The notes below the pieces were generated by a model. It worked only from the letters and a program-made list of their open reading frames with translations. It made no database searches and was not told the origin of the DNA. A stretch of DNA of 64,000 nucleotides from Amyelois transitella (lineage: Eukaryota; Arthropoda; Insecta; Lepidoptera; Pyralidae): positions 9,037,501 to 9,101,500 of the forward strand of contig NC_083506.1 in NCBI RefSeq assembly GCF_032362555.1, in the 5' to 3' direction. The translations under genes were made by a program, and so were the position numbers. Positions 26,801 to 63,300 of this stretch are shown piece by piece (position 1 is the stretch's first letter; the number at the start of each line of letters is the position of its first letter).

Positions 26801-29800
26801 TTATACTTCCGGCACTCTCGTGGGATATCGACCGGGAGTATAGTCGGGGTTATTAGGATTATACTCCCAAATAAGGTATTCAGGCTCATTCAGGTAGAGC
26901 GGAGGAATCTCATCACTTGGCTCTGTTTCTTGTCCGATCAGTTTCTTGTTTCGCTCTAAAAGCTCATCTACCTTTGCTTGTGTTTCCTCCGAAATATCTG
27001 TAAAGATGTTTGTATGTATAGAGCTAGACCCATCACAAAACTGGTGGATACCACAAGACAAAAAGTTAATTGAAATCATTAAATATGAAAAATGTATTTC
27101 AATATAAAGTGCCGTGTGGTGCCCGGCACCAACACAAAAAAGAATAGGACCACTCCATCTCTTTCCCATGGATGTCGTAAAAGGCGACTAAGGGATAGGC
27201 TTACAAACTTGGGATTCTTTTTAAGACCATTGGCTCTGTCTACCCCGCTAGGGATATAGACGTGACCATATGTATGTATGTATGTATTTATATATAATTA
27301 TGGATCCACGCTAATCAAAAAGACGTTATAAAGAAGAATACTCTGTTCTAGACGTAATAAAAATACTAACGAGTCCTTCTCAGGTCTATGCGGAGGATTT
27401 TCTTATTCTGCTCCAGGGCGCGTATGAGAGTTTTTTCAGCTTCGCCAGACAGGTCATTCGCTGCCATGTCTAATCTCGTCAGGCCACGATTCAGGCTGAG
27501 CAGACCAGCCATCTGATTATGCGTGAAACGAATTTTTTTTATAGGTAACAACGCTGAACGATAACATAAAAAATTACGTAGTAAATGAACCTTATAAGCA
27601 AGACATATATATTGTCATTGTTTAAATTGTCACCGTTATTAATTGGTGTATATGAACAAGCTTCTGGAACTTGCTCTCTGTATTATAATTGGCTTGAAGG
27701 ACCTTTTAAACTAAGCTTTCTATATTGGTTGTATCATGTGACTACTGTATAATGTATCTTAAGAAAATTTACACGTTTTATTTACTCGATATAAAATACT
27801 ATGAATTTACGTCATCATTATTCTACACCAATTATGTTCTCGATATAAACAATTTTTTTCGCCACAGAAAGCGTCAAGTTTGCGTACATAATGTGGAAAT
27901 ACCCTCATAAACCATTCGGATTCTGTTTAAACAATATATCCCAAGTTAAACAAACATTACCTTTTCAGCGGAAGGGCCTCTAAAACCGCATGAATTGACA
28001 ATCAAAGTTTGTGGTTTCTCTTTACAGCGTACGAACGCAGCAGCGAATATCGTCGCACATTCGAGGGACATCGGATTCAAACTGAAATCTATTGTGAATA
28101 ATTAACGAGAGGATCTAATGTGTGATCTATTTAATTATTAATTTGGACAAGTAACCGTATTACTATATCGCACCCTAAGGCTATAACACAACTCAATTGG
28201 AAGATAGTGTTTCAATGATAGGATATCTCTGGGGTGCTTTGGATTTGAAATGAGATAGAAATAAATTATGAGATTTAAATATGTAGATGATTCATTTGAA
28301 AGTATTAGTATCCATGGGCACGGTATTTTTAAATAGCACATATTAACAAGTAGTATCCTTAATAAGATTTCACTGGGTTTTCTTTGGCTAAACTTTAAAC
28401 AATTCGAACCACTATCTAAGTTCTTTATAAATTAGTATTTTTCATAAATTAAGGCTTTTTAGCTCGATAAAGTAAGTTTAAGATGAATACTGCCGAGTCA
28501 AAAGTGTTAAATGTTTATGAAATGATAATTATTATTTTAACTATCTGTAGCATAAATATTAAAACGTTTACCAAGCAGTTCTATCGGCGCCGCGGGCTTC
28601 ATTTGCAAGGCATACGCTATCCCCTGCACGCCTACTTCTTTAAAACGATTATTGGCTATTCTGACTCTCTTTACGTTATTGTGAATGAAGACGAAACCAC
28701 CCAAAGCTTTCATTCCGTAATCGCCAATCTTACAATGATTGAAATCCAGCTCTTCAATGCTTTCCTTCTTCACCAAATTTTGCAGAATTAGTTTGACTTT
28801 TGAACAATCTAAGTTGCTCCGATTAATACGAAATAGTCTCAAATGTCTTAAATCTTCAAGGCCTCTGCAAAGGGACTCACAATCTGCCATGGAGAATTCA
28901 TAATACCTTGGCAAATAGTTATCAGCAACGTTGTTAATACCAAAAACTAATGATATTTCTTGTAAGTTATAGAGTTTCATCAGAACTGGTTCAAGTGGTA
29001 TATGGTCGTAAAGTTTGGGAACGCTGTATTCACAGGTATCTTCAACAACGTCGTCATATGGGACCGGAGGTGTTGGTTGACGAACCATTTGCAGCTGATT
29101 GAGACCCAATTCATAAATATATGGACTCACCTGAAAATAGAATCATATATGATAATGGTAACAGGTATCTATATTGAGGGCAGTTTTCCGTTCTCTAGTT
29201 TTACTTTCTGACAAGTTGCAGATTATTGATATCTATTAAATCCTTTCCAGATAACATTTTTGGGACAAAAAATATTTTGATGACAAAGCCAAAAGTCGTT
29301 ATTTTGTATTTATGATTAAAGTTATATTTATCTTACCAATGTCGCCAATTCTATAGCATCTTCTTCTATAAATACATCTGGGTTGACATTTTCTAAATAG
29401 TCTTGTAGACATGCCGATAGGTATTTCCCTTTCCAAAAGGAAACGCCCAACTCCTTTCTATCGGGAAATTTTGTAGCATATGACCTTTTCCAATATTGTT
29501 CATCCTAGAATTTGATACAGCATTAAATAAAATAATGGTTTGTTATAAAAACCTTTTTTCATTGGTGCAAATGATCTGTTTTTTGTAGGCTAGGTATTTC
29601 AAAATAGCTTTACGAGTACCTTTATGCAAGGAACACTATATTTAAGTGGTATTGTAGCTGGGTACAAATCCATGAGCATATTAACGTCTTTCTGGAGAAT
29701 TTTATGTAAGGGGTTAATTCTATGAAAAATTCTCGAAAGAGCGAGAGCAGCAAAATATGTAAGTGGAGCTGGGGTAAAATTATCATCCCATTCAAAATCC

Positions 29801-29904
29801 TCAGCCAAAATTTTCCTAGGAAGTTCAGCGAGAGAATTCTTCATCGCATTAGTAATTCTGTATGCATCACGCGTATTAGTTGATACCACGTAAGGAATCT
29901 TCAT
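26801..29904 (-). CDS. TCTE1: Dynein regulatory complex subunit 5 / TCTE1-like leucine-rich repeat protein (6 exons, complete)
   Basis: Exons, in transcript order, are 29904-29620, 29504-29337, 29130-28572, 28088-27961, 27590-27371 and 26997-26801. All have GT-AG borders and compatible phases (0,0,1,0,1). The joined frame is 1557 nt, 518 residues plus TAA, close to the roughly 500 residues known for vertebrate TCTE1. Features matching the family are LPRKILAEDFEW near residue 30, DEQYWKRSY opening exon 2 (like the DENYW block of mammals), LQEISLVFGI before the repeats, and about six ribonuclease-inhibitor-type LRRs from about residue 235 to 455. The C-terminal block ILRIDLRRTHISEETQ follows. 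In other animals DRC5 sits in the nexin-dynein regulatory complex of motile cilia and flagella and is needed for sperm motility; in an insect, sperm is the expected site. The exon 5 acceptor (cttataag|GTTC) is chosen by phase and makes one LRR loop a few residues long. An AATAAA on the minus strand at 26646-26641 may end the message. Confidence 0.85.
27111..27288 (-). mobile_element. Family A repeat, internally deleted, inside TCTE1 intron 5
   Basis: Reverse orientation of the 11112 copy: 'gccgtgtggtgcccggcacc', 'gatgtcgtaaaaggcgac', then a jump to 'ctctgtctaccccgct' and a (tgta) microsatellite. The middle third is missing. Confidence 0.75.
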
Positions 29905-30742
29905 TTTGCAAGTCCTTGCTCTTTTTATTTAATTATATTTAAAGTATTTATATTCCTTGAGGCTATTTAAACAAAAGTTTTGTTATCGATTTATTTACGT
30001 ATCAAATTTTGACTTAATTGTTTAGTTTTTTTTATACCGACGCAAACCAAAGAGTAAACAGTATCTTTGGCTTTTTGGTAAGGTACTAATAATAAGGTTT
30101 CAACATGTACGTACCTATTAAAAGGTTAAACTACAGATATAGAATATTTACTTGAACTTTAGAATGCTCTTAAAATAATTCCTGCCGATACAGAACATAA
30201 TTTCTATAAATCTTCAGTCTTTGACTGGATCGTACCTACGTGAGGGCATGTCACGAATCTTATAGGATAATGTTGGTAATTACTGTTTGTTCGTAATCTC
30301 TTCTCTTATCACTGCGTATTAGCGATTGCATTCTTCGTTGCGGTGCTTAAATCCTTGGGTTTGCTAAGCATAATCGTTAAGTGTATTTTATGGTCAATAT
30401 TCAAGATCTTGTTGTTGAAATCGGCTGTATATTCAAATAATTAAGAAAATCAAATTAATCTCAAGGATATCCGTAATGACATTTTATCAATAATTGGACC
30501 ACTTACGTTTATCATGGTAAGTTAGTTTAATTATATCATTAACTTGATAATTCTTTGTGTCGACTGGACAAGGTTCACGTCGTAAATACTTTGTCGGTCG
30601 TTTCCGTCGTACTTCGGCAATGATCGGCTCAAAACAACCGATAGCGCCGACCGGCATCTGTTAGTTTGTTATTAATCAACCAGCGTGCGTGAGAGTCGTC
30701 CTTTTGAAAAGTTTCCTGATCTTACATTTTAATAACACAATT
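29905..30742. promoter_or_regulatory. Shared intergenic region between two divergent genes
   Basis: This 838-bp stretch separates the start codons of the TCTE1-like gene (-) and the microprotein gene (+), so both promoters must lie here unless upstream non-coding exons exist. The right part (about 30560-30690) is markedly richer in CpG and GC than its surroundings, with several CGNCG-type words, as expected for a broad promoter and 5' UTR. I see no clear TATA box at a convincing distance. Confidence 0.45.
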
Positions 30743-33700
30743 ATGAATTCAAATAATAAGAACGTCACTAAAACACAAAATAGTTCGCAGTTCTCTAGTT
30801 ATAATCCTTGGAATTTGCTGTTCACTCAGCGATCGCGCACTGAAAGTGAAAACAGCAACAGCTCTACCAACCAAAATTATCAAACGGGTAAGTTTAAAAG
30901 CTACTAAAAATTTAAATTTTTTGATAATTTTTAAAGTATCATTTATATAAGTACTGAAACCAAGTATTAATATTTAAAAGATTTGTTGATAAAAATCAGG
31001 TACCTATTGGAATAGTGTTTTTTTCATAGTCAGAGTTCTACACACTCACACAATACTCATAGACATTACAAACCAATTTTTTTGTGAACATTTTCTTGCA
31101 AAACACAGATGTTATTAACATCCAATGGCCACATACGATGTAATTCTTCATATGACCCAAACTACGTAAAGAGATGTTATATAATGGTAGATTTGAGCCA
31201 TAATGGCCATCTGTTGCCTTATTTTTGCTTACAAAAATTGCGAACGCTTCATTTGTAACATAAGCGTTGCAATACCGTCCCGCTTCACTGACGACCTGCA
31301 GAAACAGAGAATTTGAGTGTTAGGTACTCGTACAATGGTTACCGCACTTTTGAATAGTTTTGCATTAATTAGAATAGTTTTCAATGAATTTATTAATATT
31401 CCTTTGAAAACTACATGTTTCAGTTTTACTTTTAATGTGTGAATATGTTTAATGACATGATGAAGAAAAAATGTAATTTAACTTTGTAGTAATTTTATCA
31501 AATCTATTTTAAAGGATGGGCATTTAATGTAGCAGACGAGATTTAAAATCAAACAATCTTATTTTAAAGGAATACATAGTGATAAGAATGAAATTCCATA
31601 AAACGAATTATCTAACAAGTATCTCATTGTCGTTGCCTGCGTTACTTCATTTTTTTTACTTAATAGAAAATAAGTTACTTTAATTATAAAGTCATACAAA
31701 TAACGTCGCTTTGAACAACCACAAACAATTTCCTTGTTTGACTTCAATGCAAACTCGTTTCCCTTCTTTGTATGCTGGTTTGGTTACATCTACGGTAATG
31801 ACTTTGATAAACAACACAAAAGCCATAACTTACATAAGATATCGTTAAAATATAAACACTTAAGATTAAACAAATCTTGGGACCCCATTGAAGAAATGTT
31901 CTAAAGGCATCTAAACCTGTACTACTTAGTTAATCGATAAATTAAGCATTTATCTACACAGGCATTGTTTCTCCGTAATAAATTTATTATAATGGGGTTG
32001 TTTCAACCCCGGCTGTACTTATTTAAGCACTGTAGCTCCTTAAAATTGGGTTAAGTTACATTGGTCTAAGTTTGTTAGTATCAAGGTTATAATAATATCT
32101 ATTAAACGTATTAAAAGACGTGCACTTTATTGTAAATTGACATAATTTACTACATACACATACGAGTAAACACTCACACATCTGGTTATTCAGATCAATA
32201 AACTTGTGTCTTCACACCTTTAGTCTAGTGTCAGCGTCAAGGTTACTTTTGTTTTCTATAGATTTTTGAGCATTTTTCGTAAAGGCAAGCAGTGAGTGAA
32301 CGCAAACCAGTTTAAGTAGTTAACCGTGATCGAATAGATGCCGCCGAGGTCTGTAAACAAAAGATTAGTTTAGGGGTCTCACGTGGGGTCATTTATTATC
32401 TTTGAAAACTTAATGTTGGACATTATTTACTTACAAAATCATTTATGTAAGTACATAATACGCCTACGTCTTTGTTACGTTATTTGTACATTTTAGTTAG
32501 GTTGTGTTGTGGTTCTAATTTGCCAGCGAATTAATGTGGTTTTATAAATATGTTACATTTCGAGTTTCTAATTGTCTACGTATAGTTGTCAATTTTAATT
32601 CATTATCACATTATTATTACATCGATTTACACATACATTATGATAATAAAACGTGAAATGAATTTGAATAAATTTTCAATGAAATCAGAATGGGTTTTTA
32701 ATTTGGAAACTATCAAACGGGCTACAATTAGACCTAGGGCTCCTAGCTGCTGTTAGGTCTATATCTGCAAAAATGTAGTGAATGCCCGCCGCTCCGTCCG
32801 AATATTACCAAAAATCCCGTCAATTTCATGAAATCATGGAATAATATATTATTCTGATTTCAATGTCGTAACGCCACGACATTGATACCTTAATGCCCTG
32901 ACAGAACATTAAGGTATTAGTAATGACCTGAATAAAATGGGCTGAAATTTGTTACACGTGTAGATTAAAACATAAATTGACGAAAAATTCCTTGCGGCAC
33001 CGCCTGCATCAAACAAAAAGTCCCGCTTTTCATAAAAACCGATAGCGTTTTCTTGAAATAAAAAGGTTAACTGCTATTTAGATAGTTACAGTTTAAACAA
33101 CTAGACATTCTTTCACATTTATAATACAAGTAGGGATAAAATATGGATACCTATAGATACTTAGTGTTTTTCATTGCAGATAAATGAAATTACTGTGTAA
33201 TACTTACATACATATCATCATGTCTATATCCCTTGCGGGGTAGATAGAGTCAACAGTCTTTAAAAGACTGAAAGGCCACGTTTAGCTGTTTGGCTTAATG
33301 ATAGAATGTAACTTTGTAATGCTGCAGTAAAGTACTACATCAAATGATTATAGCACTTAGCATTGCATGCGATGGCTATATTCAAGGTCTACTTTATAAA
33401 ATCAAGTTTTTCTTCAAGAATACAATGAGGCTGCAGTCATTAAACTGAGATAATAGGCTTAGTGCTCCACATTAACTCTGGATATTTGTACATTTTATAT
33501 TATCTTTTTTTGAAATAAAAAACCGCCCAAGTTTTAGTTTAGCTAAATATATTAACGTTGATGTTTATATAAAAATTTTTGAAACGCTTTCGTAAGCTAC
33601 CAAAATAGTAAAAAAAAAACAAATTATTCGATATTGCCAACTACTAACTCGATAAACTCGACATTATTTTATTTAATACTCTGGAGAGGACTTGATGTCA

Positions 33701-36700
33701 AGCTAAAATGCCGTAATAAACTTATCCATTATGGATCTTTGCATAATTCACGCAAAAATCTTTTCTGAAACTATTCGAGGGAAGTTGATTTAAACAGATG
33801 CCACAGTTGACGTAGGTAAAGGGATTGTCTGACATTAAGTTAGCTAAAAATAACCCAAGTCCAATACCCATTCGAAACACAAATAAAACAAATTTAATCT
33901 CCTTTTACTTTAAAGAAAGGAACAGTACCACATATGTGCCATAAATTAACCTATAGACTTAGTATAGTTGAACTTAAACAAATACGTAGTACTCTGGAAT
34001 TTAGAGTGCTCTTGATTTATGCATTTATTTAAACTCAGACTTATGAAATATTTTCTTTGACCTGCAGGTACTCATACGCAGTACGGGCCTCTACAGAAAC
34101 AGACCAGCAAAAGCAACGAGGAATACTTGTGGATGATGTAAGTTAAATTCAATTATGAGAAGCACCCGTGTACTCTATTTTCTTATTTACGTACCTTACC
34201 TTACATACTATGCTAATCGACACTCTTACAGTGGGAGAAAACATCGTAAAGAAACGTACACATTTAAGCAACTTGAAGTTTAACCGTGCTCCAATACGGA
34301 TTTAGGTTACCCTGATCAAAAAGTTGCTGTTTCCTTTAAAAATCTAAATTGCCCACTACAGGATCATTATAGTCATAGGCGTATACGAGTATACCCAGCG
34401 TACCAAGGTCTATCCTTTTCAGAAAGGAGGGAACACACCGGGTCTAACGCCAGGAAGGTTTTGATGGTGAAGTTAAATCTACATAATAATAAAAAAACAT
34501 ATAATATTTTTTTTTATATTATCCTTATTGCGATGCAGTGAACAGAACGATCCTGAAAACTTATTTCCCTCTGTTTATACTGATTTTAAGCCTGATATGA
34601 AATATTAATTAAAACTTCTTAAAAAAATACGACGTCGCAAAAGCCTAATCGCAATCGCAAATATTGCCCCTGGCGCAGCGTTCCTTGGTCAACGTTTGAC
34701 TTCAACGTTCCTCTCATTTTTGTTTAAAGCGTCTTGGATAGGCAATACCTCAGATAACTTTTGATCTCTTTTAAAATTCATTAAAAAGGTACAAATTTCT
34801 TCTAATTTACCTTGGCGTTAGTGACGTTACATCCTCACCTTTCTAAAGTGGCGCCCGGGGTGCGACGTTTGATAAAATATAAACATAATGCAATCGAATT
34901 TATCTAGAAGCGCCCTGCAACATACGTGCAATATGAAACTACCACCTTATAATAACTGGTTTGAATCGGCTTGACCATGGCCTCGATAGTTAACCATCTT
35001 CATGTTAACGTCATTTCTGCATAAATAAATGATACACACGATCTATTATGTAAATTCTTTGTCTTGTAATATTTTTTTAGCATTTAATAGTGATTTCAAA
35101 ATTTGTTTGGTTGGTCAACAAGTTATTTTGGAAAAGTTCTTAGTTTAAGAAACCCACATATTTTTTTATCTATTGCTCAAGATATAATTATTTTTGGATA
35201 CTTTTAATGAACTTCAGTCCTAATAAAAATAAACTGTATAACAGTAGGTGCAAAGTGTAATACTGATTAAAAATGTGTTAAGTAAATTCGAAGTAAGTAG
35301 TTCGAATCGAATTTATAAGAAACAAAGGGTAAAATCTTTCTTCTTATTTCATAATCAATGATATACCTAGTTCCGTAAATTGAACAGTTTTTTAAGGTTT
35401 ATTAAATATTTTTGTGTCCTGAAATCACCTAATGGCAAGTCGCCTGGGTGATCAAAATCAACAAGATTTGATTCTACATTTTTTTATACCCTATAATAAT
35501 TAAAACTTTAACCCTATTACAATATTTTGTTAGTAATTCCATTTTCTCAATCTAATTGGATTCATTCTTCTCCCTAGTTTAGTAATGTTCATTACTTTAA
35601 TATTTATGTTAAGGGGTAATTGTTTCTTTAAGGCTGTTAAGTACCGCCTCCTTACTAAATTGCTGTAACAAAATGGTAAGGTAATTCAAGAATAGAATAA
35701 AATAAAGTTAACCAGTGGTCCAAAATGCCCCGAACATTCTGGTAGGAATGGCAGAGCATTTATGGTCATAAGTGGCCCAAGGAGGGAATTCCAAGTGAAC
35801 TATTGCAAAAGGTTCTTAGCAATCGTGGTAGATATAGAAGGTCGACCAGTTGCAGCAGCTGAGACGCAGTGGTCTCACTATTCCGCAGTTTCGGGCTTAT
35901 GTGTGAAGGAGATGCCATTACCGGCTCGCCTCTCGCTTGGTGTCGAAACATTGCGTGCGCCAGCGCCGACAGCCTTCCGACCATACAGTCCGCTGTTAGA
36001 CCCCCGAATACCAGTGCAGTGCATTGTTGAAAGTGACAGTGTTGTTTAAAATGGAGCACGTATAGCGTTGCTCAACCCCAGGATAACGACCCGCTATCGC
36101 TGTGCTCAAAGGACACTCTTGCTACGGTTAGTGTTTGTTTACATCCATGTAGTCACGTGTCTCAGTACTTCTGTCGGTAATGCATTCAATTGAAATTTGC
36201 AACTCCATTTTTCTCTGAAAGAAAAATCTAAAAGTATTATTCACTTAAATTCTTGTTCTTTGATAAAGTTTAATAAAAATAAAACATGATATTATGGTTA
36301 CATGAATGAGTTTTACATTTAAATTAATATGTTATTATTATTTTTTTTATTTTAGGAACTTAATATGTAGTTGTTGAATAATAGATTTCGTACAACTAGA
36401 CTGAATAATGACTGAATCAATAAAAAAAATTGTTGTAAGCAATTGAATTGAAAAATTTTCAGTAATCAATTTCACGTAATATTATTTTTATATACTTTTA
36501 TAATTACAGTTCAATCAGTGAATTAAGATAAATATAGGTAGAATCGAAAAATATTTATTAAATAATTAAAAACGTACATGTACAAATATCATTTATATGT
36601 AACCCATACGCGGTAGACAGAGCCAACAGTCTTTCAGCCAGCATATAAACAAATTATTTCAATCTAACCAAGTTAACCAAGACCTTATCTGTCGTACATT

Positions 36701-39050
36701 GGTCGTATCGTACAACATCGATAGCTTATCCCCGTCTTTGTACCTCTGCTAACTTTTCAAGGTAAAATCAATTTGAGGTAAATTTCGTTGTACACCTTGC
36801 ATTTCACAATGATGGATGAAGTATAATTTAGTCTTTCTTCGCGTTACGTATGACTATGAAATCACTGATGTAGGTCAATAACTGAGCCATTATAATTTTA
36901 CAAGAAAATTTTCAATATTCTGTGAGTATGATTTCAAAAAGAACTAAAAAAAAACTCTTTTAATGAAAATATTTATTTTAATATAATTACTTGATAAATA
37001 AAGTTTCGGTTAAATCTTTCAGTAAAACACGGTAAACAAGCGCCCGAAATGAAATATTTTTGATTAATGTTTGCAAAGTTCGGTAGTTTCATGTTGTTTG
37101 ATTTCAATTAATATCGAATGTTGGTTCTGTAATCTAGTTGGATTAGTTTCTCTAAACACCTGATACGTCTAGTTGAATTACTGGATGTTAGATATTTTAG
37201 GTACCTACCTATTTTTCATTGCAAAATACTTAAATGATATATCTTTCATTATGAATATGTATAAACAACCGAATGATCCTATATAAATTCCATTTTTCCT
37301 TTTTAGGTAAATAAGATATAGTAATTTTCACTTTCATGGTCAATTAATGCTTTTCTCTGAAAGGGCAAGTAAATGCCTGGATAATGACGATATATAAATA
37401 AATTTACTGATCGATAAACGCATCTAGGTTTGTTGTTTAGCGTTTGCCGGCGCTCAGGGAAGTTCATAAATTTCCCTCGAAAAGTAAACCATTAATATGA
37501 ATAACGATTTAATGATAAAACTTATGTGGCTAATAAGATTATTTACAGTTTTCTATAATAGACACAAGTCTCTATAATAATCTGAGTTATACAAAAACAA
37601 TCTCAACTATCGATACGCCTTTTGATACTTTGATAACACAAAATTTTAACGCATACCAATTACTTTATATCTTCATAATATCGTGTTTAAAAAATTCCAA
37701 TAAAATAATACTTATTGAGAAATCAATTCTTCAATTTCTTGTTCTCAACAATTATTACACATAGTGATGATAAGACAATATGCAACGGTGTTTGTTACGC
37801 TGATTACAGTTGAGTAACGCGTGTTGTAACTGAGGGAGACAAAAAATGATGCCAGACTTAACTTGATAATAGTTCTTTCTTATTTCTTTCTCAATTTACC
37901 TGACTCAATCATATAATAGATAACTAACAGGTATAGTAGCTATTTGTATTTTGATAAGAACATATATTTTTTTCTAAGACGAACGTTGCATGTAAGAGTA
38001 ATAACATTTTGTAGATACTAAAATTACTTTTATGGCACATTCGGCGTCGACGTCATCGGTTTCCTGAAATCCGATGTCAATAAATATCAGTACAGATTCA
38101 TTCACACCTTGCCCATAAATTTGAAGGTAAACAACCTGTGTATTGCGCATTAGGTATGGAGGTCATGTGCTAAGGTCTTTTACGAAATGACTGGAAATAG
38201 ACGTATAAAAACAATTGCATGCGACTGATGACAACGTACCTAGTTCCGGAACAGTTTCCTTATGACTCTTTTTATGATTAAGATAATTAAACCTCAGCTT
38301 CGATGGCTTAAATTCTCGTATTTCTTTTTCCCATTGAAATTTTCGTAAAAGAAGTTATGTATTTGCTAATGTTACTCCAAAAGATTGGGTTTCTTTGTGG
38401 CGCATATGACAAAAATCGATCAAGTATTTTTTGTTTTATGCATAACAAACAAAAGCAAAATATATTTTGTCTTTAAAATATTATAAGTATGGATTTATTT
38501 CAATGTATTCCTTCCTAACAACAAGCTGTTCTAATAAGAAAACATCGCGAGGAATCCTGCAATAGCATACCTAATGTAAAAATATGGTTTAATCTGGTGA
38601 TCAGTGACTATGACCATGTCCACTTGTCCTCAAGGGACCATGTCATTGGTTCCACTGTTATTAACCCTTGCCTTTCCACTCCCGTTCATACTCCAGAGCC
38701 TCTACCCTTTTTGGAGAACATAGCCTTATGGGATTTCATTGGAAAGATCTTTAATTTACTGGCCAGCAAAGCCGCGAGCTAAACCTACAATCGATTTGAA
38801 TTAATGAATTTTGCGCAATTTACATATTGCTTATCAAGTTAATTCGCAGAAATGGCACTCCTAGGGTTATCATTTTATCACACTTAAAGCCCCCAATTGG
38901 GTATTAATAAACTTTGTTTAATAATAATATTATTATCAATAACTAGAAATATTATATTATATGATATGGTAGTTATAGTCACTAGATTAGGTACCTATGT
39001 ATTTAACTAAATTAAATTTATATTCCATTGTTCACAGGTGGCGTTCCTAG
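30743..39050 (+). CDS. 75-aa microprotein, three exons, unknown function
   Basis: Exons are 30743-30887, 34068-34137 and 39038-39050. Junctions are ACGG|gtaagt ... ctgcag|GTACT and GAT|gtaagt ... cacag|GTGG, with phases 1 and 2; the joined frame is 228 nt ending in TAG. The start ATG has A at -3. The product is polar, rich in Asn, Ser, Gln and Thr, with no signal peptide or membrane segment. Short aromatic patches are YNPWNLLF near residue 20 and EEYLWMMWRS at the end. I do not recognise it. Two strong donors, both in phase, and the CpG-rich leader support a real transcript, but nothing proves the ORF is translated. It may be the upstream ORF of a two-ORF message, because a hydrophobic 53-aa ORF follows in the last exon (39147-39308). 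Alternative 3' exons could also exist, since the introns are 3.2 and 4.9 kb. Confidence 0.55.
32860..32917. repeat. Two adjacent perfect hairpins
   Basis: tcaatgtcgt (32860-32869) pairs with 32876-32885, and ataccttaatg (32885-32895) pairs with 32907-32917. The two stems share one base. They lie in intron 1 of the microprotein gene. Confidence 0.8.
33205..33302 (+). mobile_element. Family A repeat, 5' half only
   Basis: 'tctatatcccttgcgggg', 'aggccacgtttagctgtttg' and 'ttaatgatagaatg', then unrelated sequence. It lies in intron 1 of the microprotein gene. Confidence 0.65.
34215..34465 (+). mobile_element. Family B repeat in intron 2 of the microprotein gene
   Basis: 'tgggagaaaacatcgtaaag', 'aagcaacttgaagtttaacc' and 'aacgccaggaaggttttgat'. 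It begins about 75 nt after exon 2. Confidence 0.5.
35700..36130. other. GC-rich block of unknown origin in microprotein intron 2
   Basis: A roughly 430-bp island of balanced base composition in a long AT-rich intron. It is open on both strands for about 95 codons (35762-36049 + and 35766-36059 -), which is what GC-rich non-coding DNA does by chance. No domain or splice-bounded exon was recognised. It is possibly a degraded transposable element. Confidence 0.35.
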
Positions 39051-39146
39051 TCGCACGCGTACCGCTAGCAGAGCTGTTCTTCGTATAATTTAAAATTCGA
39101 TCGTTCACAAGGATGAATTGTTTATGACTGTGAATAATTTGAAATT

Positions 39147-39308
39147 ATGTTGGAGCAAATGGCATTAATTCCGTCTTGGCTACTGATGGCGTGGCTGGGA
39201 GCTTGCATCCTCTTTAGTCCATTCGCCATATTTTTTGTCGTCTGCCTACCACAGCTGCCACTTCTTGTTATAAGGCGAGCGTGTCATATACCATTCGAGT
39301 ATATTTGA
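39147..39308 (+). CDS. 53-aa hydrophobic small ORF in the last exon of the microprotein transcript
   Basis: This ORF starts 96 nt after the stop of the 75-aa ORF, in the same exon. It begins MLEQMALIPSWLLMAWLG and continues hydrophobic for about 35 residues, then shows a basic IRRA patch and ends ...FEYI at TGA. The ATG has A at -3. Composition fits a one- or two-pass membrane microprotein with its basic end on the cytosolic side. GC content and third-position variety are higher than in the surrounding AT-rich DNA, which suggests coding rather than chance. I cannot name a family. Insects have known bicistronic messages encoding two small proteins, so this arrangement is plausible. It could also be the only translated ORF, or a chance frame in a 3' UTR. 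Confidence 0.5.
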   Translation: MLEQMALIPSWLLMAWLGACILFSPFAIFFVVCLPQLPLLVIRRACHIPFEYI

Positions 39309-39388
39309 TATGAAAGATTTTCGAATAAGAAAAAAAAATATTTTGCTAATACAAGATTTTTTTGTAGATAAGTTTGTATATAAGTGTA

Positions 39389-39394
39389 AATAAA
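39389..39394 (+). terminator. Possible polyadenylation signal of the microprotein transcript
   Basis: AATAAA about 80 nt after the stop of the 53-aa ORF, with AT- and TG-rich sequence following. Confidence 0.5.
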
Positions 39395-41654
39395 TAATTT
39401 TAATGATTGATGTACGAAGTTGCTTGTGTTTCATTTAAATTTTTCGTATCCTAGGATTAAAAATGATGTCGTCGAACCGTTCTTAGTCAAACGACCGTCG
39501 TCGACTCGAAACTGACTCTTCAATTTCTAAAGTTTTTGTTGCAGTAATAAATTTAAAAATCTATGCGGATGCTTAAAAGGCATCATAAGTCATATAATTA
39601 TCTATATGCCAATATCACAACGACAACCAAACAAAGTCCGTTTAGATAATTGATAATTTCAATACTTATAAAATGTCAATACAAAGGGAGGTTATCAATC
39701 GCACAAGTGTCTAAGTAGTTATGCATCTACAAGTCTACTTGGCAGCTACAATAGGTATACAAATACATTTAAATAAGCATTGACAACTAGAAATACGCGA
39801 AAATGAGAGAAAATGACTCAAATAATCAAGGTTTTGATATGAAATCCATACCCTTATAATATCGTATTATAGAGCTATGGATTTTGTAGTCGAAAAAAAC
39901 GTGCACCAATAAACCACAAAACGTATAATTATACGTAGAGATTAAAATCTCTTAGAAACATAGGTATCAGCGCCATCTACCAGAAATCGCAGAAACATTT
40001 ACAAAGTTACAAAGCAAATGTTGAGAAAATCCACTGAGTTTTGTATGAAAGTATTCGTGTTGTTATTGGTTATGAGTGAAATCTGCAGATGGAACAATAA
40101 ATATATTTTATTTAAATTCAAAGGTTTTTTTTTTCGACATTTTCCCGTCATCCTAAGTTGTCTTACCAGGAGAACTAAGAATTGAAGTTAATATTCTGCA
40201 ATTTTTAATTAAAGTTATATTGTGCAACAAGCACACTAAATGAAATTCACTTAAGTATGTAATGTACCTTCTCCAGTTTTCTGTACCAAAGAGCTAAATA
40301 GTTACCTCATTATTTTTATCAATTTGTGAACATGAAATAATTGAAAACATAATAAATAAAGTCCTTGCACTAATTTTTTTTTAGTTTAAGTTCTATTTTT
40401 ATTTTTTTTTTCTTGGAGTATTTCAATATATAAATAAATAAAATGACGATAACGATAACAACACTGCGAGAACTTTGGATTAGAGTCACATGGTTTAAAA
40501 TATATACGTAACCGCTTATCATATGGGGCATACCTTATTTTCACGGTGTCGATTAAATTAATTTTATGTCGTATTTAATTTTTAAGTTTAAGTTATGTTT
40601 AAGTTTTAACTATAAGTATTAACTTTTAAAAATCTCATTAAATCTGGTACCTGAAGCGTGACTAGGAGTTATTCTAGATGTGGGAAGTTTACATTTAATG
40701 GTAAAAACCATTTGTGAAGTGCCTTTATCCAAAAAAGTAGTGCTTAAAAGCTTTTTGGCCATATAAAGCAAACAATTACAGCGAGGTACACCCCAGAAGC
40801 TTATCGGTATCAGTTAGTAGGACAAAGCACTGGCGTTGCATTCGCTAGCAAGGACGCATGCACGGATATAGAAACACTGGATGTTACCTCATTATTTTTC
40901 CAATTAAAATAAAATATATAAGTAGACTTCTTAAACTTTATGATTATAAAGATTACTATTCACGTCAATGATTTTAAAATATTATATTGAGGAGCATTAA
41001 AATTTACAAAAACAGTGTGGCGACATGTCTATGCCACACGTCACAACAATAAAAAAATAAAGTCACGTGCCGCTATCAGTCAAAAACAGCGAAAAACCTA
41101 AATCGCGCAAGCAAAGACTTCACGGATTGGAGCATATATACAACCGCCGACACAACATCGTTGGAGCCGCGGTTCCCCAGGCGTCACACCTAGCCTGGCG
41201 GAAAACCTTCCCTTTGATGGCGGTCGAGCCGAATCATCACTCCCGCTACAACAGCGTTAAAATGGAATAAGTAGATGATCTTTCTCTGATATCAGATACA
41301 GTAACAACAGTAACAGTACCAGTACATACATACAGAGATAGTTATCTTACCTTTTAAGGGGTAGACTGAAGCAAAATATATTGAATGTGAGTTAGGTTGA
41401 AACGCGTTATTGTCAATTTTATAAAAAAAAATTGAAAGCAAATAAACTTTGCATAGCCATCATATACTCGTATGAATCTATCCGGAAATTTCAATCATAA
41501 ATTGGCTTTTATATCGATCTATAATAAAAACAAAATTTAGTAAGTATTACACTTTAATCTTAATTCAAAAAGTTATTACCTAAACTAACTAAAATAAAAG
41601 CAATAAAAGTGAAACCATATCCGAGTACCAAATTGTATCTCGTGTCTCTTCTAG
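39395..41654. other. Intergenic, no gene seen
   Basis: AT-rich DNA. A GC-richer block at about 41060-41275 (with 'ttggagccgcggttccccaggcg') resembles a degraded transposable-element fragment; a perfect 7-bp inverted repeat (gtgtggc/gccacac, loop 11) lies at about 41016-41040. A trace of repeat family A occurs near 41326-41385. I see no exon. Confidence 0.4.
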
Positions 41655-47700: not shown

Positions 47701-50700
47701 TAGAGTTGTTCACGTATATATGTATATTTCTTGAAACCTACCTAACTTAGCTAAAATAAAAACGTATCAACATTATGATTTAGGTCATTTTGACATTGTT
47801 TAGCTCATTAAACTAGGTACTTATATTAAATTGTAGGAATGTGATTTAGAAATCTCGTTCTATTAAATAAAGACTATTAAGTAGTTATAAAACATATTAC
47901 TGTTTTTCTAAGAGATATGTGAAGGACTCCTTATCTCCCTGTTCCGTAGAGTTACTCGCTTAGGTACTTTATAATTTAAACCTTTTCGATTTAACCTTTC
48001 TACCACAACTCACTTCTACCAAGAAATATGGTAAACATATCGACATTTTCTGAATAATTTGTTTTTTCTACTCAAGCTGGCAATTCAATTTAATGCAAGT
48101 ATAAAATAGTTTTGTTCTTTTTTTAATTTGCAAATGATTTTATTAAAATTTTGCCCAAGTAGAGATCACATTAGTAATATAGACTTTAATAATATCTGAA
48201 GCAAGTCAATGAAATAACATGTAAGTGCACCTATAGCAATATAAACAGACAGCATATTGGCGAATTGTGAAAGGTCCGGACAAGGTTCGGAGAAATATCA
48301 ACCACAAAGTTCACAAGGAAATGAGATCGACACTGACATCGTTTAACATACATACAAATAATATATATCACGTCTTTGTCTGTTACGGGGTAAACAGAGT
48401 CGATATTCTTGAATAGCGCGCATTTCATTTAGATGCAACCGTCTTCGTCGAAATAATATGACTACTTAAATGCAACACTTCTATACATATACATATATAC
48501 AGATGTAGAATTTCGGTTGTTTATTTATCTCTTTCTCACGTTTTTATTTAAGCAATCCTCATGACATTTGGGATTGTGAGTAGGTACACATAGAAGTGCT
48601 GAGACGAACACAGATTTTTTTATCGAGAAAAAAAAACGTCTACTAATTATAATGTAATATGTAAACTTTAACCTAGATAATTCAATCGTGAGATTACTTG
48701 CTTTCGATTATGGCCTAGGTATTTGGAGAACTGGGTATGGTCACATATTTTGTTCCTACATACCACATACTGTGATAATAACGTTATGAATCACTAAGCA
48801 AAGCAGTGTTCAAGGTAAATCCTAATTGCTCTCGTTATAACTTAGTACCTAATGCAATTCAAAAAACTGGTTTTCTATTGCAGCCAGGAAAATTATAGGC
48901 ATTTACTTGAAGCATTTTGAAATATATTATGCTAAGGGAGCACTATAATAATACAAATAGAAGCGGAAAACGGCATGATATGATTAAAATCATACAAATG
49001 TAAACAGTACAGACTCTTCTTATAGGTCTTGAATATTTACGTAAGTATGAATTGATTTAAAATGCCACAAGGAAGTCTGAGTATTTTCTCCTTTAGGTAC
49101 CTATAAAATCAAATAGTTATGAAAAATCATTACGATCCTATTATTTATTGAAAATAAAAACGGATTATTGAATAAGAACATAAATAAAATTATTTTTGCC
49201 AATATAAAAATTAAAGAAATTGCCTTCACCCTAATTAAACATTGGACTTTATGTGACGGTAACATTGAATTTTTAATACCAAAATAAAATAGACACTAAT
49301 TTTAACTTTTATTAAAAATAATGTAAAATAGTTTAAAAAGCCTCTCCGGCTCCCAGTAAGCTCTATTAGATAAGTGGTAAGACCGATGGCCAAAAATACC
49401 AATTACATGATCAACTCATTCAATAATGCTCACGAGATTTTGTTGAATTTAAATCCCCGGGTTAAATTACAACATTATTTACTATTATAGTAACTCACAT
49501 AAAATTTTTCTTATTTACCTTATAGTTATTCTAATTGTATTTTGTTGTAGGTATTTGTACTTACAATCCACACTATCTATAGGTACCTACATATGCGAAA
49601 CTCTGTCTGTCTACAACTAAATCGCTAGACCGATTTTGATGTAATTTTGTGTCAATGCAAACATAAAATATAAATAAATTACTCTTCTTTTGCAGATGTT
49701 CCTACTGCTGATAGCAGTGACTGCTGAACCGGCCCCTGGTCGAGTTCCGAAGGTCTACAACGCCCTCATTACGTCCAACCAGAACTTGGAGCCCAGCAAA
49801 GCCTACCCCGTGTATCAGCCTGTGCTTCATGAATCATATTACCCTTTCCAACCGGCGATATTTTATGGGGATTTCCCTCTTGGCAATGTAAGCATGACGT
49901 ATTCTTATAAATATCATAAAAAAAATTGGCACTCTGTATTTTTTCTAGTAATAAGCAGAATCTTCTAGTACAAGCTGGTCTATTTGTTTAATACTCAGTA
50001 GTTTCCACGCAAATTGTCAAAGTCAGCCAAGGGACAAAGCTCGCTAACTTTGGTGTTTTATGGGTTAACAACACTCATATTTGAAACTCAATTTCATAAT
50101 TTAATACGGAGCATATTTGATTTTAATGTGTCACTTAAATATTTCAGGGAATTCACCGAGAAACCGCGCATCCAAAAGACCCTATGCCACAAATACCAAG
50201 AGATCCTGTTCCCCAGGAACCAGCCTCATCAGAGCTGCCTCCCCCGCCGCCGTCTCCAGAGCCTTCAGAACAACCGCAGAACGAAGCATCCACATTGCCT
50301 CCGCCACCACCCACCACCCAATCACCTATTCCTTTAAATGAATTTGGTTTACCCCCACAAGTTTTACCCCTGGGACGAATAGACCCCGCTTATCAAGGGT
50401 TCTCTCAAGTTGGGCCATTCACATACACATACCCGAGCTTCAGATTCTATGATCCATTTGACCCGTTCAGTTATAGCCCGTATGCTCCTTTACCATTGTA
50501 TCGGCCACTTGGTAATGTTTTAGGACAGTCAGCACCTGTGTTCATAGGAAAGGAAGCCATTCCTACCGCTGCTCCGGCGCAGAGGAACCCTGAACCGACA
50601 GCTAGCACTCCTCCACCGGAACCGAGCGATCTGAATATTTTGAACTTCGAGTCTAAGGATCCTGCCATTCCCAACGTACCACCTCCTCCGTTACCACAAG

Positions 50701-50729
50701 GAGGTCTAAAGTCTGATAAATCTGCTTAG
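41763..50729 (+). CDS. Secreted proline-rich protein with PFQPA block (3 exons)
   Basis: Exons are 41763-41783, 49696-49887 and 50148-50729, with donors CAC|gtgagt and AAT|gtaagc, acceptors tgcag|ATG and ttcag|GGA, all phase 0. The frame is 795 nt, 264 residues plus TAG. Residues 1-17 form a signal peptide (hydrophobic core MFLLLIAVTA, then EPAPG). The mature part begins with KVYNALI, then YPVYQP (45-49) and PFQPAIFY (57-64). After that come low-complexity stretches: PPPPPSPEPSEQ, PPPPPTTQ, an aromatic FTYTYPSFRFYDPFDPFSYSPYAPLPLY segment described here only by type (FYDPFDPFSYSP core), and a PPPPLPQ tail. No cysteines remain after signal cleavage. It looks like a structural extracellular protein (cuticle, silk, eggshell or duct lining); the tissue is unknown. 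An in-frame ATG at 41724 could give 13 more N-terminal residues, but 41763 has the better -3 A. It shares the YQP/PFQPA block with the minus-strand gene at 61877-63300. Confidence 0.75.
42358..42417. repeat. Two adjacent hairpins
   Basis: cattactgaaata (42358-42370) pairs 12 of 13 with 42381-42393; ctcactttg (42396-42404) pairs perfectly with 42409-42417 over a 4-nt loop. They lie in intron 1 of the 41763-50729 gene. Confidence 0.75.
43395..43585. mobile_element. Interspersed repeat family E, copy 1
   Basis: 'aatcacgcctcttttttgga', 'ctaggcagagactaca', 'cactttcccacgatccct', 'atctcttcatgtgagctcg' and 'gacctgaccttccg'. The same order recurs at 45710-45850. Confidence 0.55.
44343..44485 (+). mobile_element. 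Family A repeat, diverged
   Basis: 'catcccttacgaggtagata', 'aaaggccacgttgaacg' and 'gtgatagtgaaaggttgcca'. A second small piece ('taagtcgccacctacgacat') lies just upstream at about 44205-44268. Both are in intron 1 of the 41763-50729 gene. Confidence 0.55.
45710..45850. mobile_element. Interspersed repeat family E, copy 2
   Basis: 'acgcctttatcccggagcgg', 'taccacttgccacgatcctt', 'ctcttcatgcaagctcggcg' and 'ttgccaggatatctctgat' match the copy at 43395 in order and spacing. Confidence 0.55.
46205..46262. mobile_element. Repeat family C fragment
   Basis: 'gttccgtcgcttcttctaca' then 'cctgcgctttggaagcg'. The inverse of the same text ('gcttccaaggcccatgtgta', 'gaagaagcggcggaac') is at about 16895-16945, so both derive from one element. 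Confidence 0.5.
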
Positions 50730-52688: not shown

Positions 52689-55600
52689 ATGAATAAGTTA
52701 TTACTATTTGTTGCCCTTGTTGTGTTTCATGTCGATATAAGCTTACAAGTAAGTTAAAATAGTTTTTTTATTGACTAGTTTAGTAATTATTCATTACAAT
52801 TCGTTATGAATAAACGGTAGGTAAATTAAACACTTTAATAGAAAAAAAAATTTTGCTTAACGGACTATTGTAATAAAATCATTATTCTAGATTTTATTTT
52901 TGCCATTAGTATATCTTAGAAGGTAATAACACATATTAATTATAAATAAAAGCTGAGGGTTTAAACAGAAGCATGCAAAGATTTGTGCGCGTAAAATTCG
53001 CCATTCTTGTCATTAGGTATTAATAAATTAAATCATTTTTTTTATCTACTTCAATTACGGATTATTAACCGTATTGCATGATCTACATACATACATACAT
53101 ATTATCACGTCTATATCCCTCGAGGAAAAGCCATGATCTATTTTGGGCATAACTGTTACATACAAGTAAGATATATACTACTTATTTATTTTTTGGACAT
53201 TACTATTATAATTAAATTATTTACAGGAATGTCAAACTGAAGTTTCTTACAACGGCCTAACTGTAACATGGTGGAAAAGCCCACCAGGAAATAATATAGA
53301 GTCAGATCCTATTTGTTACAATAATGATCAAATTGTCACCCGAAACTGTACGGGATCTGAATGGAAACCGGAACTTGATGAAATTATGTGCTCTAAAGTC
53401 GTCCAGTATTTCAACCTATCGACATGTCCTCCCGGCTATCACAGGATTTCCGATAATAATGATTACTGCTACCAAGTTCATCAAAAATCAGCCTGGAATT
53501 TTCCTTGCTACGAAAGCGGAGGTGCATCTGTCATAACCGACTTTGATAAAACGGAAATCGATTCTTTACTACAGTCATTGATTTCTTATAATTTCTCGCA
53601 ATACTTCTGGTTACCGGCACAACGAATGTCTACATTTCAACCTCTGACCTGGTATATACCTGGAACCAATTGGGGACGTCACGTGGAGATAAATGGGGAA
53701 TTACCGTTACGATCACAAGTTGCAAGGAATTGTTTACTTCTTGATATAAAACGCAGAGAATTAGTGACCGAATCATGCGGCGAACAACATCCAACATTAT
53801 GTTTCTATATTAATGATTTACAATATCCAGCAAAATGTCCCGACGGATATCATGCATTTCGATTTATGTCCGACGATGGAATATGTCTCGGCATAGAAAA
53901 AGCTGACACTGAATCTGGTTTAACTTTTACTCAATTTATAGACAGAAAATGTAACAAACCAATGGGACACATAATTGAAGATAACTTACGAAGATTTATA
54001 TTTAAGAAAATTGCAGAAATGGACAATGTTCATAACGACACCTGGTGTTGGTTTACCAATATAAATAATTATGAGAAAAATGTTTTAGTAAATAACACAA
54101 CAAGTGTTTTACCGACTAATTTTAATTCTTTTGAAGGAGTTATAAATAGTGCTGGTACGTTGAGCTTGTTCAGTACTTTAGTAACATTATCATGTATGGC
54201 TTGTGAAACCGAAATGATTTATGAGCCAGCTGAGTTTCTTTTAGAATACAATGAAATAGAAAACAAGCTTTTCTTGACAGTATACAATCCATCTGGATTA
54301 TGGTTATACGATGACAATGATAAAGGTATACAGTGTTTCTCAAATGCACAAGGATTTATAACAATAATTGAAGTTAATGATTTCCCTTACATTGATCTTC
54401 GAACTAAAGATATCATTGATAAAATGGAAAAAATTGTGTATGTTATTGATCTTGTCACTGATATGTCTGCCCAATATTGGTGTGAAGGACACACAAAAAA
54501 CTTTTCATTAATTACAACAGAGAAAATAATTGTAAATCCTCAAGGTAGTCAAGTTCATGTATTTGCATTGATTTTTCAAATAAATTCCCATAAAATAGTA
54601 GATTATTCAGATATTAACTATTTGATAGAAAATATAACTGAAATATTTCAGACTGAAAATACGCTTGTAATGGAAATGACCGACAATATTGGATTTATCG
54701 ATTTAGTTATGCATTTGCATATTGCTATAAATAGAACCTATGATAATGAAGCTCAAAATTTGCAAATAACTTTAGTCGATTTGAAAGAAAAAGCTCATCA
54801 AGAGTTTCCAAAATATAATTACACTTTTGTTCATTTAGCTAGTTCAACATATTGCTTGCCTACTAATTCATCTGATTATATAACCTTAGACTGGCAACTA
54901 ACTCCAATTGGACAAATTGCCACTCCTGTACAATTTTGTTTACAAAAAAATGGACTTCCAGTTAAAAGGTTATGTAATGGGTCTTACCTTACAGGTAGTA
55001 AGTGGGATAATGTTGAAGGTAAATGCGATAAAAATTATACACCGTCTAACATAACGACATTTTTGTATGAATTTGTCAAAGGAGAAACATCTGAAAATAC
55101 AACTTCTCGCTTTTTAATTGATGGTCTCAATTTCGTATTGAGCGACACTGATATAATGATTCCTGCAGATATTTATTATTTATCAATGTCTTTGCAATAT
55201 ATATGCAAAGTTCTCCAATATAATCAATCAAACATTGATATGGGTGATATTGAAAATATAGCTTGGGTTATGGACAGAGTAATGGACGTTGACAATGGAT
55301 CCTTAAATTTAGCGCAAACCCTTAATTCGAGTAATTTTTTATTAGATTCTGTAAAGAATATAATTGAAGTACTCGCGGAAAATATTTTCTTGAATAATAG
55401 TCTACTACCAAAATCCACTTATCAAACGGCTATAAAAGACCAATTTGTTATTCAAATATCTTATCCAAAATATAATAATATAACAGGTTTAGCAATTTTA
55501 AGAACCGGATTGTCGGATAAATTTACAGATATGGAAGTTATGCCATTATATGCAAACTCAATAATAGAAGATATTTTGTCAATTGATAACTTAGAAATAG

Positions 55601-56931
55601 CTGCATGGTTACCGTATAATGTGTTGAAAAATCTTAAGGTCATTTCTAATGACAGTAAGTGCAATGATGATGATTTAAAAAATTTGCATATAATAATAAA
55701 TGTCTATCACAATGATGTAGTATTTCAAGAATTAAGAAAAACCGACCATGTTATTAATAGTCGAATTATTGAAATATCCGTACCAGGTTTTGTAACAAAT
55801 TTAGAATATCCCATCCCTCTTATATTCAGTAACATAAATAAAACAGATACATTTAGGTTTTGTAGTTTTTGGGATTTTGAGAATTCTAAAATTGGTAGAA
55901 TTCCAGGACAATGGGCTACCCGTGGGTGCTATGCTCTTGAAATGTCTAATAATTTAACATTGTGTAAATGTTACCATTTGACACACTTTGGTCAGCTAAT
56001 TGATATTAAACATTACTTTTCTGACGAAACTTCGCCTGTTAATAAAACGCACGCAGAAGTTTTAAACATAATAACTTTAGTTGGTAGCTTTCTGTCACTA
56101 TTAGGCGTTATTGGTATATGGGTAACAGCTTTGGTTTTTGATGTTTGGAGAAAAAAGGCAGGAACAAAAGTATTGTTACAACTTTCTACAGCTATTGCTT
56201 TGCCATTAGTTTTGATGATAGTATTTAATCTTGACAGTAAAATTTTCAAGGAATATGACGGAAAACAAGTTGTTGCGTCTCATATGAGAATCGTTTGTAT
56301 TGTTTTGGGCGCATTGCTGCATTATTCTGTATTAGCCAATTTTATGTGGATGTTGATTACAGCTACATTACAATTTGTTCGCTACGTGCGAGTTCTAGGG
56401 GTATCGCGACCGTCTCGCTTCATGATAAAATTCACAATCTTAGGTTGGGGTGTTCCGTTTATTCCAGTTTTGATAACGTTAATATTCAGTCATGCAAACT
56501 ATATCCCAGATCCATCAATAGACCATCGAATATGTTATCCTAAAGGTTCTTACTTTATGATGGGAGTCGTTCTTCCAATTTGTATAATACTGTGTGTTAA
56601 TATTGTCATGTTTGTGCTGGTAATAAGAGCGATAGCACAATGTCCTGACATGAGAATACCAGATAAAACCTTGATTTGGGCACAGTTAAGGGTATCTATT
56701 TTATTATTCTTTTTGTTAGGTCTAACTTGGATTTTCGGATTTTTCTCATTTTCTAACAACTATATTTGGTCTTACCTCTTTTGTCTGACTTCGACCATTC
56801 AAGGATTTGTATTGTTTATGTATTTTGTAATTTGTGATCCTTCTACCAGAAATCTATGGGTTACAGTAATCAAACCAGAATTTTCACAGAATTCTTCCAG
56901 AAAATCTGTTATGAGTATTAGCAGTGGCTGA
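52689..56931 (+). CDS. Adhesion-family G-protein-coupled receptor with two C-type-lectin-like modules
   Basis: Exon 1 (52689-52748) encodes a 20-residue signal peptide; exon 2 (53227-56931) encodes everything else. The phase-0 junction is CAA|gtaagt...ttacag|GAA. Total 1254 residues, ending TGA. In order: an N-terminal Cys/Trp region (TRNCTGSEWKPEL, hormone-receptor-like); a C-type-lectin-like module about 87-214 (CPPGYH ... CGEQHPTLCFY); a second shorter one starting CPDGYHAF; a long Asn-glycosylation-rich region; an HRM-like patch (CNGSYLTGSKWDNVEGKC); and a GAIN-type region closing in a GPS. The GPS has Cys 899, the GC pair with Cys 921, CKC, then HLTHF, so autocleavage is predicted between Leu 938 and Thr 939. 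Seven membrane segments run from about residue 966, ending in IQGFVLFMYFVICDP and a short Ser-rich cytoplasmic tail. Adhesion GPCRs sense extracellular ligands or force at the plasma membrane. It is not latrophilin or flamingo by domain content; it may belong with insect-specific CG11318/CG15556-type receptors, which is a guess. Confidence 0.88.
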
Positions 56932-61876: not shown

Positions 61877-63300
61877 TTATGCAGAATCTACGGATATGGT
61901 ATCTTCATCATCTACTCCTCTATCGCTATTGTCAGCTGAAGGAAAACTGGACGGTGGGGAAGGAGATGGCTGAGGGAACAACTGTGAAGGGAATTGTGGG
62001 AATCCTGATCCTGGAGCCTGTGGGAATTGTGGGAAACCTGATCCTGGAGCCTGTGGGAATTGTGGAAAACCTGATCCTGGAGCTTGTGGGAATTGTGGAA
62101 AACCTGATGCAGGGGCCTGTGGGAATTGTGGAAAACCTGATGGTGGGGCCTGTGGAAATTGTGGCAAACCTGATGCAGGAGCCTGTGGAAATTGTGGGAA
62201 ACCTGATGCAGGAGCCTGTGGGAGTTGTGGGAAACTTGAAGCAGGAGCTTGTGGGTATTGGGGTGTTTGCGGGAATTGGGGAAATGAAGTAGACTGATCA
62301 GGCGATTGTTGATACGATGCGTCAGTGCTGTCCTGTTGAGTTTGTTCAGTCGACGGCGTGGAACCTTGAGGTGGAATGCCTGAACTGCTCGGTGGCGGTG
62401 GCTTCGCATCTGGTGTAGATGGCTGTTTTTCAGGTGGAAACTCTGCCGAATCAACAACTGCCGTATCTGAATCTCCTGCAGGTTGAGAGGGAGTATCTGC
62501 TAATGGTTGTTCTGGTACTGGTGCTGTGGGAGCAGCTGGAGCAGGAGGGTACACAATACCTCCTGGAGGATAATATGATCCTCCTCCAGAAATAAGTTGA
62601 CCGCCAGGTGGGAAAAATGACGCGTCAGCAGTCAAATATGAACCATCAGTGAATAGGGTACCTCCTTGTGGGATAAATGATCCACCGGCTATAGGATAGA
62701 AGGCTGGTTGAAAAGGACTAAAGTGGCTTATCTGCGGCTGGTAAATAAATTGCTGATCATATCCTGACAGCGATGATAAGGGTATCTGTAACAAAAGTAA
62801 TAACGCCCTTAGTGATATTTGAAATATCTTTAATGCCTTGCTTATCGATTTTTCAATACGATTTATCAATACATCAATATATCAAAAATATTTTGATAAA
62901 ACTGTCAAGAAGTTGGAACACTATCACACGTTTATCAAGGAAAAATAAACAAAGGGACATATAAGAAGCTGTGTTAGAAAAAATATTTACAATAAGATTA
63001 TTAAAACTCGCACAGCATGTAGGGAATGTTCTCAACTGGTTGCGAACCAATTATTTCCATAGCGGCCAACAAGTTTGAAAATGACATCGAACTTCTACTT
63101 ACAGCATTTATATATTGCGTGGTTGCAAAGGCTGTTTTAATTTGTGGCGTGACGGTTGCGATCAGTTGTCTAGTAGTCTTCCTTCCACCAGGCCAAGCTA
63201 CACTCGTGCCACCAGCACCGGGCGCAGCGTTTGCTGACACCGCACAGAATATTAATAACGCCAGCACCTGTTTATCACACACGGATTTAAATTTCTGCAT
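61877..63300 (-). CDS. Secreted proline-rich protein with 11-residue repeat array (2 exons)
   Basis: Exon 1 is 63300-63103, exon 2 is 62785-61877, joined by AATGCT|gtaagt ... gttacag|ATACCC at phase 0. The product is 368 residues, ending TAA. Residues 1-25 form a signal peptide (core VLALLIFCAVSANA, then APG). After a basic segment comes YQP at 81-83 and PFQPAFYP at 90-97, matching the block in the gene at 41763-50729. Next is a Gly-rich part with PQGG/PPGG motifs, an Ala/Pro and Ser/Thr/Gln-rich middle, then about nine units of roughly FPQFPQAP(A/G)SG near residues 231-331. The acidic tail is GVDDEDTISVDSA. Only one cysteine remains after signal cleavage, if any. A structural extracellular role is likely; the tissue is unknown. 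If the intron is not removed, exon 1 reads on to a stop at 63001 as a 99-residue secreted protein, so an alternative short isoform is possible. ATG 63384 is also in frame but gives a worse signal peptide. Confidence 0.75.
61990..62290 (-). repeat. 33-bp coding minisatellite
   Basis: About nine imperfect 33-bp units, each coding an 11-residue FPQFPQAP-type motif of the proline-rich protein. The units nearest the 3' side of the gene are the most uniform (APGSGFPQFPQ), while those on the 5' side vary (ASSFPQLPQ, ASGLPQ, PPSGFPQ). The array leaves all frames largely stop-free, so long antisense open frames here are by-products. Confidence 0.85.

Follow-up and report, generated by a model that had tools for sequence, protein, structure and literature searches.

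Whether a single insect mRNA carries two unrelated microproteins is the question raised by a locus on contig NC_083506.1 of the pyralid moth Amyelois transitella (assembly GCF_032362555.1), which we examined within a window of 64,000 nucleotides (nt), this being the whole stretch of DNA that was analysed (contig positions 9,037,501 to 9,101,500, forward strand) and the frame for all positions given below. A preliminary description of the locus, made from its sequence, had proposed a possible bicistronic message for two unrecognised products. The first open reading frame (ORF1) is assembled from exons at 30743-30887, 34068-34137 and 39038 onward, which join in phase into 75 codons encoding MNSNNKNVTKTQNSSQFSSYNPWNLLFTQRSRTESENSNSSTNQNYQTGTHTQYGPLQKQTSKSNEEYLWMMWRS, a product whose C-terminal end is SNEEYLWMMWRS and whose TAG stop lies at 39048-39050. 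The second (ORF2) follows in the last exon and encodes a hydrophobic product of 53 amino acids (aa), MLEQMALIPSWLLMAWLGACILFSPFAIFFVVCLPQLPLLVIRRACHIPFEYI. The coordinates, the phase, both product lengths, the 96-nt spacer between the ORF1 stop and the ORF2 start and the AATAAA beyond were all confirmed to the base, as was the placing of the ORF1 stop 13 nt into the last exon (bases 11-13), and the good start context ascribed to ORF2 is present in the form of an A at -3. The AATAAA starts 339 nt beyond the ORF1 stop, a stop in the frame of ORF2 ends at 39137, just 5' of it, and readthrough of the ORF1 stop would meet the next stop after five codons. The explanation that fits best, which we hold tentatively and at a little under an even chance, is that of a small coding gene with ORF1 as its main product and ORF2 as an unproven downstream ORF; its basis is the sequence itself, the phase of the exons, the ranks of the splice sites and the codon-position signal of ORF1.

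In order to set the exons of ORF1 against chance we scored splice sites with a matrix untrained on this species over 284 kb of the same contig on both strands (568 kb of strand). Among 30,872 GT sites the donor at 30887 ranks 31st, and the acceptors at 34068 and 39038 rank 15th and 151st among 28,920 AG sites, while the donor at 34137 ranks only 533rd among the GT sites. Pairs resembling exon 2 with an equal summed score number 54 with exon 2 included, or 0.77 per 8 kb, compared with 0.33 per 8 kb in first-order Markov (Markov-1) sequence, while only two pairs, exon 2 among them, match or better it at both sites. The whole chain was required to have three exons, the first of them an ATG exon of 90 nt or more, an ORF of 70 aa or longer and an equal summed score. 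On these terms the 568 kb of strand contains two such places, one of them the ORF1 locus, and 852 kb of simulated Markov-1 sequence contains none. The second place (minus strand 73538-72088 in window numbering, beyond the right end of the window) could be either a real gene or a false positive, and it is from the rarity of the whole chain, with the caveat that this other place is possibly a false positive, that we take the ORF1 model as probably real.

Base composition was then compared between the three codon positions. The asymmetry of ORF1 gives a chi-square of 23.0. One of 177 noncoding ATG ORFs (60-110 aa) reaches this value, as do one stop-free shuffle in 500 and 23 of the 163 overlapping windows (median 15.1) drawn from five stretches taken as coding, a reference that includes the uncharacterised proline-rich ORF at 50139-50726. 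In polarity the product surpasses all but one of 800 stop-free shuffles of the ORF1 bases. Asymmetry, polarity and the whole-chain statistics together support the spliced coding ORF1 of the preliminary description, without support from codon usage, and suggest that ORF1 is probably a real small spliced coding gene. A coding signature such as a bicistronic gene would show in its first ORF is found in the asymmetry, with the codon log-odds unsupportive.

Several points count on the other side. Exon 2 alone is not beyond chance, because close to one equal pair is expected in every 8 kb. Codon log-odds do not favour ORF1, as they are equalled or exceeded in 211 of 388 noncoding ORFs, although the training set consists of few and partly uncertain coding stretches, among them 30508-30657 on the minus strand, where coding was assumed, and 29602-29904 on the minus strand, where the ends are uncertain. 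In addition, the coding tests were chosen after the ORFs had been seen, the splice-site matrix was not one derived from this moth, and the ORF sets treated as noncoding may conceal unannotated genes or transposons.

There is also a noncoding reading, in which the transcript does not code or the sites line up by chance. The ORFs would then be random frames, perhaps in a long noncoding RNA divergent from the promoter of the neighbouring gene for dynein regulatory complex subunit 5 (DRC5, also TCTE1). We consider this unlikely. The commonness of exon-2-like pairs, the one other equal three-exon model, possibly itself due to chance, and codon log-odds that are neutral or negative would all agree with it, as would the presence, head to head on the other strand, of the DRC5-like gene. 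It would also agree with the results of homology searching. Pfam-A at E up to 10 yielded no family for either product, with search filters that drop most weak matches, PDB sequences yielded no match for either, the viral contigs yielded 82 and 9 pattern matches with none confirmed, and the prokaryote contigs, searched with ORF2 only, yielded 264 pattern matches with none confirmed; within these collections the products are indeed unrecognised. An Rfam scan over 25-45 kb of the window and a full-text literature search with six peptide fragments returned nothing. Two likenesses, that of the string YNPWNLL in ORF1 to the eIF4E-binding pattern YX4L(hydrophobic) and a loose one of ORF2 to human SMIM3, were considered and not used, each having been checked by Pfam scan only. 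The copy search covered exon 3 DNA and the ORF2 protein in the moth's own genome (327 Mb, 33 contigs), where exon 3 DNA was found at one place and the ORF2 protein at one place at E up to 10. Against the noncoding reading stand the asymmetry of ORF1, which a single noncoding ORF in the set of 177 attains, and the failure of simulated sequence to produce an equal model.

If the locus is instead a small spliced protein-coding gene with ORF1 as its main product, we infer that it would be transcribed and that translation would start from the first AUG by ordinary scanning, giving a polar and probably disordered product of about 72-75 aa (66 aa with exon 2 skipped). A stop codon in the last exon is not expected to provoke decay of the message, and the ORF1 stop is so placed. 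ORF2, in the 3' part of the terminal exon, would have a minor role as an at most weakly translated downstream ORF on the ORF1 mRNA, because reinitiating ribosomes would encounter two AUGs first, and were ORF2 made in quantity its source would more likely be another transcript that enters exon 3 without ORF1.

A true bicistronic mRNA, in which both ORFs are functional and ORF2 is a single-pass membrane microprotein, appears to us rather doubtful. In its favour the mean hydropathy of ORF2 is 1.41, a value attained by none of 388 noncoding ATG ORFs (45-80 aa) and by only seven of 3000 stop-free shuffles matched for composition, and T occupies 26 of its 52 second codon positions but only 14 first and 14 third positions; the hydropathy figures are post hoc, however, because the earlier reader chose ORF2 for its hydrophobicity, and the best 19-residue segment is equalled in eight of the 388 noncoding ORFs. 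Its asymmetry of 14.3 lies above the median of the windows taken as coding (12.3) but is reached by 21 of the 388, and its codon log-odds are neutral, being equalled by 97 of them. The frequency with which a random point has the start of an ORF of 50 aa or more within 130 nt is 0.095, which again favours the bicistronic reading. AlphaFold2 places helices at residues 10-33 and 36-52 of ORF2 with a mean predicted local distance difference test score (pLDDT) of 81.3, a model that carries no weight because a control, the hydrophobic ORF at 49104-49265 on the minus strand that was taken as chance, scores higher (88.0). A strong acceptor-like site at 39255, inside ORF2, scores 9.2. ORF2 and acceptor signals can mimic each other, because hydrophobic codons create pyrimidine tracts. 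With unusual hydrophobicity and borderline codon asymmetry, the sequence of ORF2 appears to support coding less than that of ORF1, and a co-translated ORF2 microprotein is possible, if unlikely.

The path of ribosomes to ORF2 is a further difficulty. Ahead of ORF2 the spliced mRNA holds the AUG of ORF1 at 30743 (A at -3), two AUGs internal to ORF1 at 34133 and 34136, and two more at 39113 and 39124, with a further AUG at 30620 that matters if transcription begins 5' of it. Those at 39113 and 39124, absent from the preliminary description, make the ORF2 AUG only the third after the ORF1 stop; the one at 39113, also with A at -3, opens a mini-ORF (MNCL, then stop), and the frame of the other runs past the ORF2 start. 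A clear spacer, a leaky first AUG or a close stop and start as a route to ORF2 was not found, given these two intervening AUGs, the context of the ORF1 AUG and the length of the spacer. In the bicistronic reading ORF2 would be translated through leaky scanning or through reinitiation after ORF1, for which the MNCL mini-ORF might be of help together with a mechanism like that of DENR-MCT-1. DENR-type reinitiation is a possible route. Reinitiation varies with the length of the upstream ORF (uORF) and with intercistronic distance (PMC5972666), which suits a minor role for ORF2. Drosophila DENR-MCT-1, however, promotes it after short uORFs with strong Kozak sequences independently of distance (PMC5972666), which speaks for the bicistronic reading.

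Known systems offer partial likenesses. The Drosophila sloth1/sloth2 gene has two frameshifted small ORFs (smORFs) on one insect mRNA, and a figure legend marks a predicted transmembrane domain; the two, however, are likely paralogues lying 5 nt apart, and the model is leaky scanning past a weak first AUG to a strong second one (PMC9681215), whereas ORF1 and ORF2 are unrelated in sequence character and have a much wider spacer with two AUGs in it. The arrangement here is possible but unfavourable for ORF2, because ribosomes must pass the intervening AUGs, a contrast with the close spacing and stronger second AUG of the sloth ORFs. In the silkworm, small ORFs downstream of the main ORF of a transcript (dORFs) give a likeness from another moth, with 992 of them among 34,401 candidate smORFs and only 10 among the 738 smORFs of its best class (PMC9841908). 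Annotated short coding sequences of Drosophila are comparable in size, typically about 70-80 aa, and 32% have a transmembrane helix (PMC11674832). The silkworm dORFs rest on transcripts (PMC9841908) and the Drosophila sequences are annotated as translated (PMC11674832), whereas ORF1 and ORF2 are known here from sequence alone.

The splice scores permit ORF1 and ORF2 to share a mature mRNA, but the link depends on the acceptor at 39038 alone, and an acceptor at 37307 is equally good (summed chain score 40.9, against 40.7 with 39038). More doubtful still is the fuller proposal of a single mRNA, lying head to head with a gene for a sperm-axoneme protein, whose two microproteins would be unrelated to each other and restricted to the lineage. 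The first would be the polar 75-mer, rich in N/S/T/Q, and the second, reached by reinitiation via the mini-ORF, a membrane peptide of 53 aa with a single pass. From the idea of a bicistronic message, ORF1 as a spliced coding gene is supported by its sequence statistics, and ORF2 is no more than a possible second product, with its borderline asymmetry, the two AUGs in the spacer and a junction that is not unique.

The body of ORF1 appears fairly robust to the choice of exons, as judged from the sequence, but its ends and its pairing with ORF2 do not. The acceptor at 37307 leads to a product of 72 aa ending EEYLWMM, because its exon begins GTAA, and retention of intron 2 gives the same end. Skipping of exon 2 is in phase and yields 66 aa ending NYQTGGVPSRTRTASRAVLRII, with an asymmetry of 25.4, slightly above that of the full chain. 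A possible alternative first exon with its donor at 30516 retains the ORF1 frame when spliced to the acceptor at 30830, although this donor is matched or bettered by 122 GT sites and an acceptor of the quality of 30830 is met once in every 563 nt. Splicing of a first exon at 29002-29164 to exon 2 would lead to an 81-aa product that keeps the end of ORF1, but the donor of this exon is weak (6.6, against 11.8 for the donor at 30887). A scan of donors scoring at least 6.5 between 27000 and 39030 gave, as other first exons that keep exon 2 or 3 open, those with donors at 29035 and 29164, whose products span 54 to 81 aa and which were rejected with donor scores of only 6.6. That the gene has other exons or another 3' end, making the 75-aa product or its pairing wrong in detail, would suit these in-frame joins, the rival acceptor and the acceptor-like site inside ORF2, but it is improbable given the shorter products of the 30516, exon-skip and 37307 variants (47, 66 and 72 aa) and the weakness of donor 29164.

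The coordinates of the locus are collected in Table 1. On its left, 28540-29142 on the minus strand is a clear exon of DRC5, with T-complex-associated-testis-expressed 1 as its best PDB match (E 2.1e-20). The start codon of this DRC5-like gene is likely at 29904, about 840 base pairs (bp) head to head with the start of ORF1. The minus-strand ORF starting at 30657, with its donor placed at 30507, would as first exon reduce the gap to 85 bp; this is unproven, and no match was found for its join to the DRC5-like gene. DRC5 is a protein of the sperm axoneme, and from this role shared testis expression with ORF1 might be guessed.

Table 1 Features of the locus and its immediate surroundings, in window coordinates
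Feature	Position	Strand	Remarks
ORF1 exon 1	30743..30887	+	48 codons + 1 nt; donor CGG/GTAAGT
ORF1 exon 2	34068..34137	+	70 nt (not divisible by 3); may be a cassette exon
ORF1 final 13 nt	39038..39050	+	encodes ..WRS end and stop
Putative terminal exon	39038..39410	+	approximate end, placed from the AATAAA
Mini-ORF MNCL* between the ORFs	39113..39127	+	start context ACAAGG ATG A
14-codon ORF between the ORFs	39124..39168	+	out-of-frame overlap with ORF2 start
ORF2	39147..39308	+	53 aa, hydrophobic, one match in own genome
AATAAA poly(A) signal	39389..39394	+	GT-rich stretch about 30 nt beyond
Possible alternative first exon	30514..30516	+	ends ATG/GTAAGT; spliced to acceptor 30830 gives ORF1 frame, 47 aa
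Rival exon 3 acceptor	37307..37312	+	yields 72-aa ORF1 product
DRC5/TCTE1-like gene	28540-30657	-	lies head to head with ORF1; uncertain first exon (start at 29904 or 30657)

Other features were seen around the locus. Within intron 2 a minus-strand ORF of 58 aa (37974-38150) has the third highest codon log-odds of 114 ATG ORFs, one training exon being out of frame. Downstream, the plus strand carries at 53212-56928 a frame open for 1239 codons, which has 7tm_2 and GPS domains and resembles an adhesion G-protein-coupled receptor. Two ORFs had no Pfam match at E up to 0.01, the proline-rich one at 50139-50726 on the plus strand, which contains PPPP runs, and a proline/glutamine-rich one with repeated FPQFPQAP(x)SG units at 61880-62881 on the minus strand. 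In the left flank, about 101 kb upstream, lie ORFs that we take to be like the tail of a non-long-terminal-repeat (non-LTR) retrotransposon reverse transcriptase.

If ORF1 alone proves true, the locus would join the small genes that gene finding with a length limit can overlook. If both products are true, it would add to the insect examples of one mRNA that encodes two unrelated small proteins, and its spacer would test how insect ribosomes get to a second ORF past intervening AUGs.

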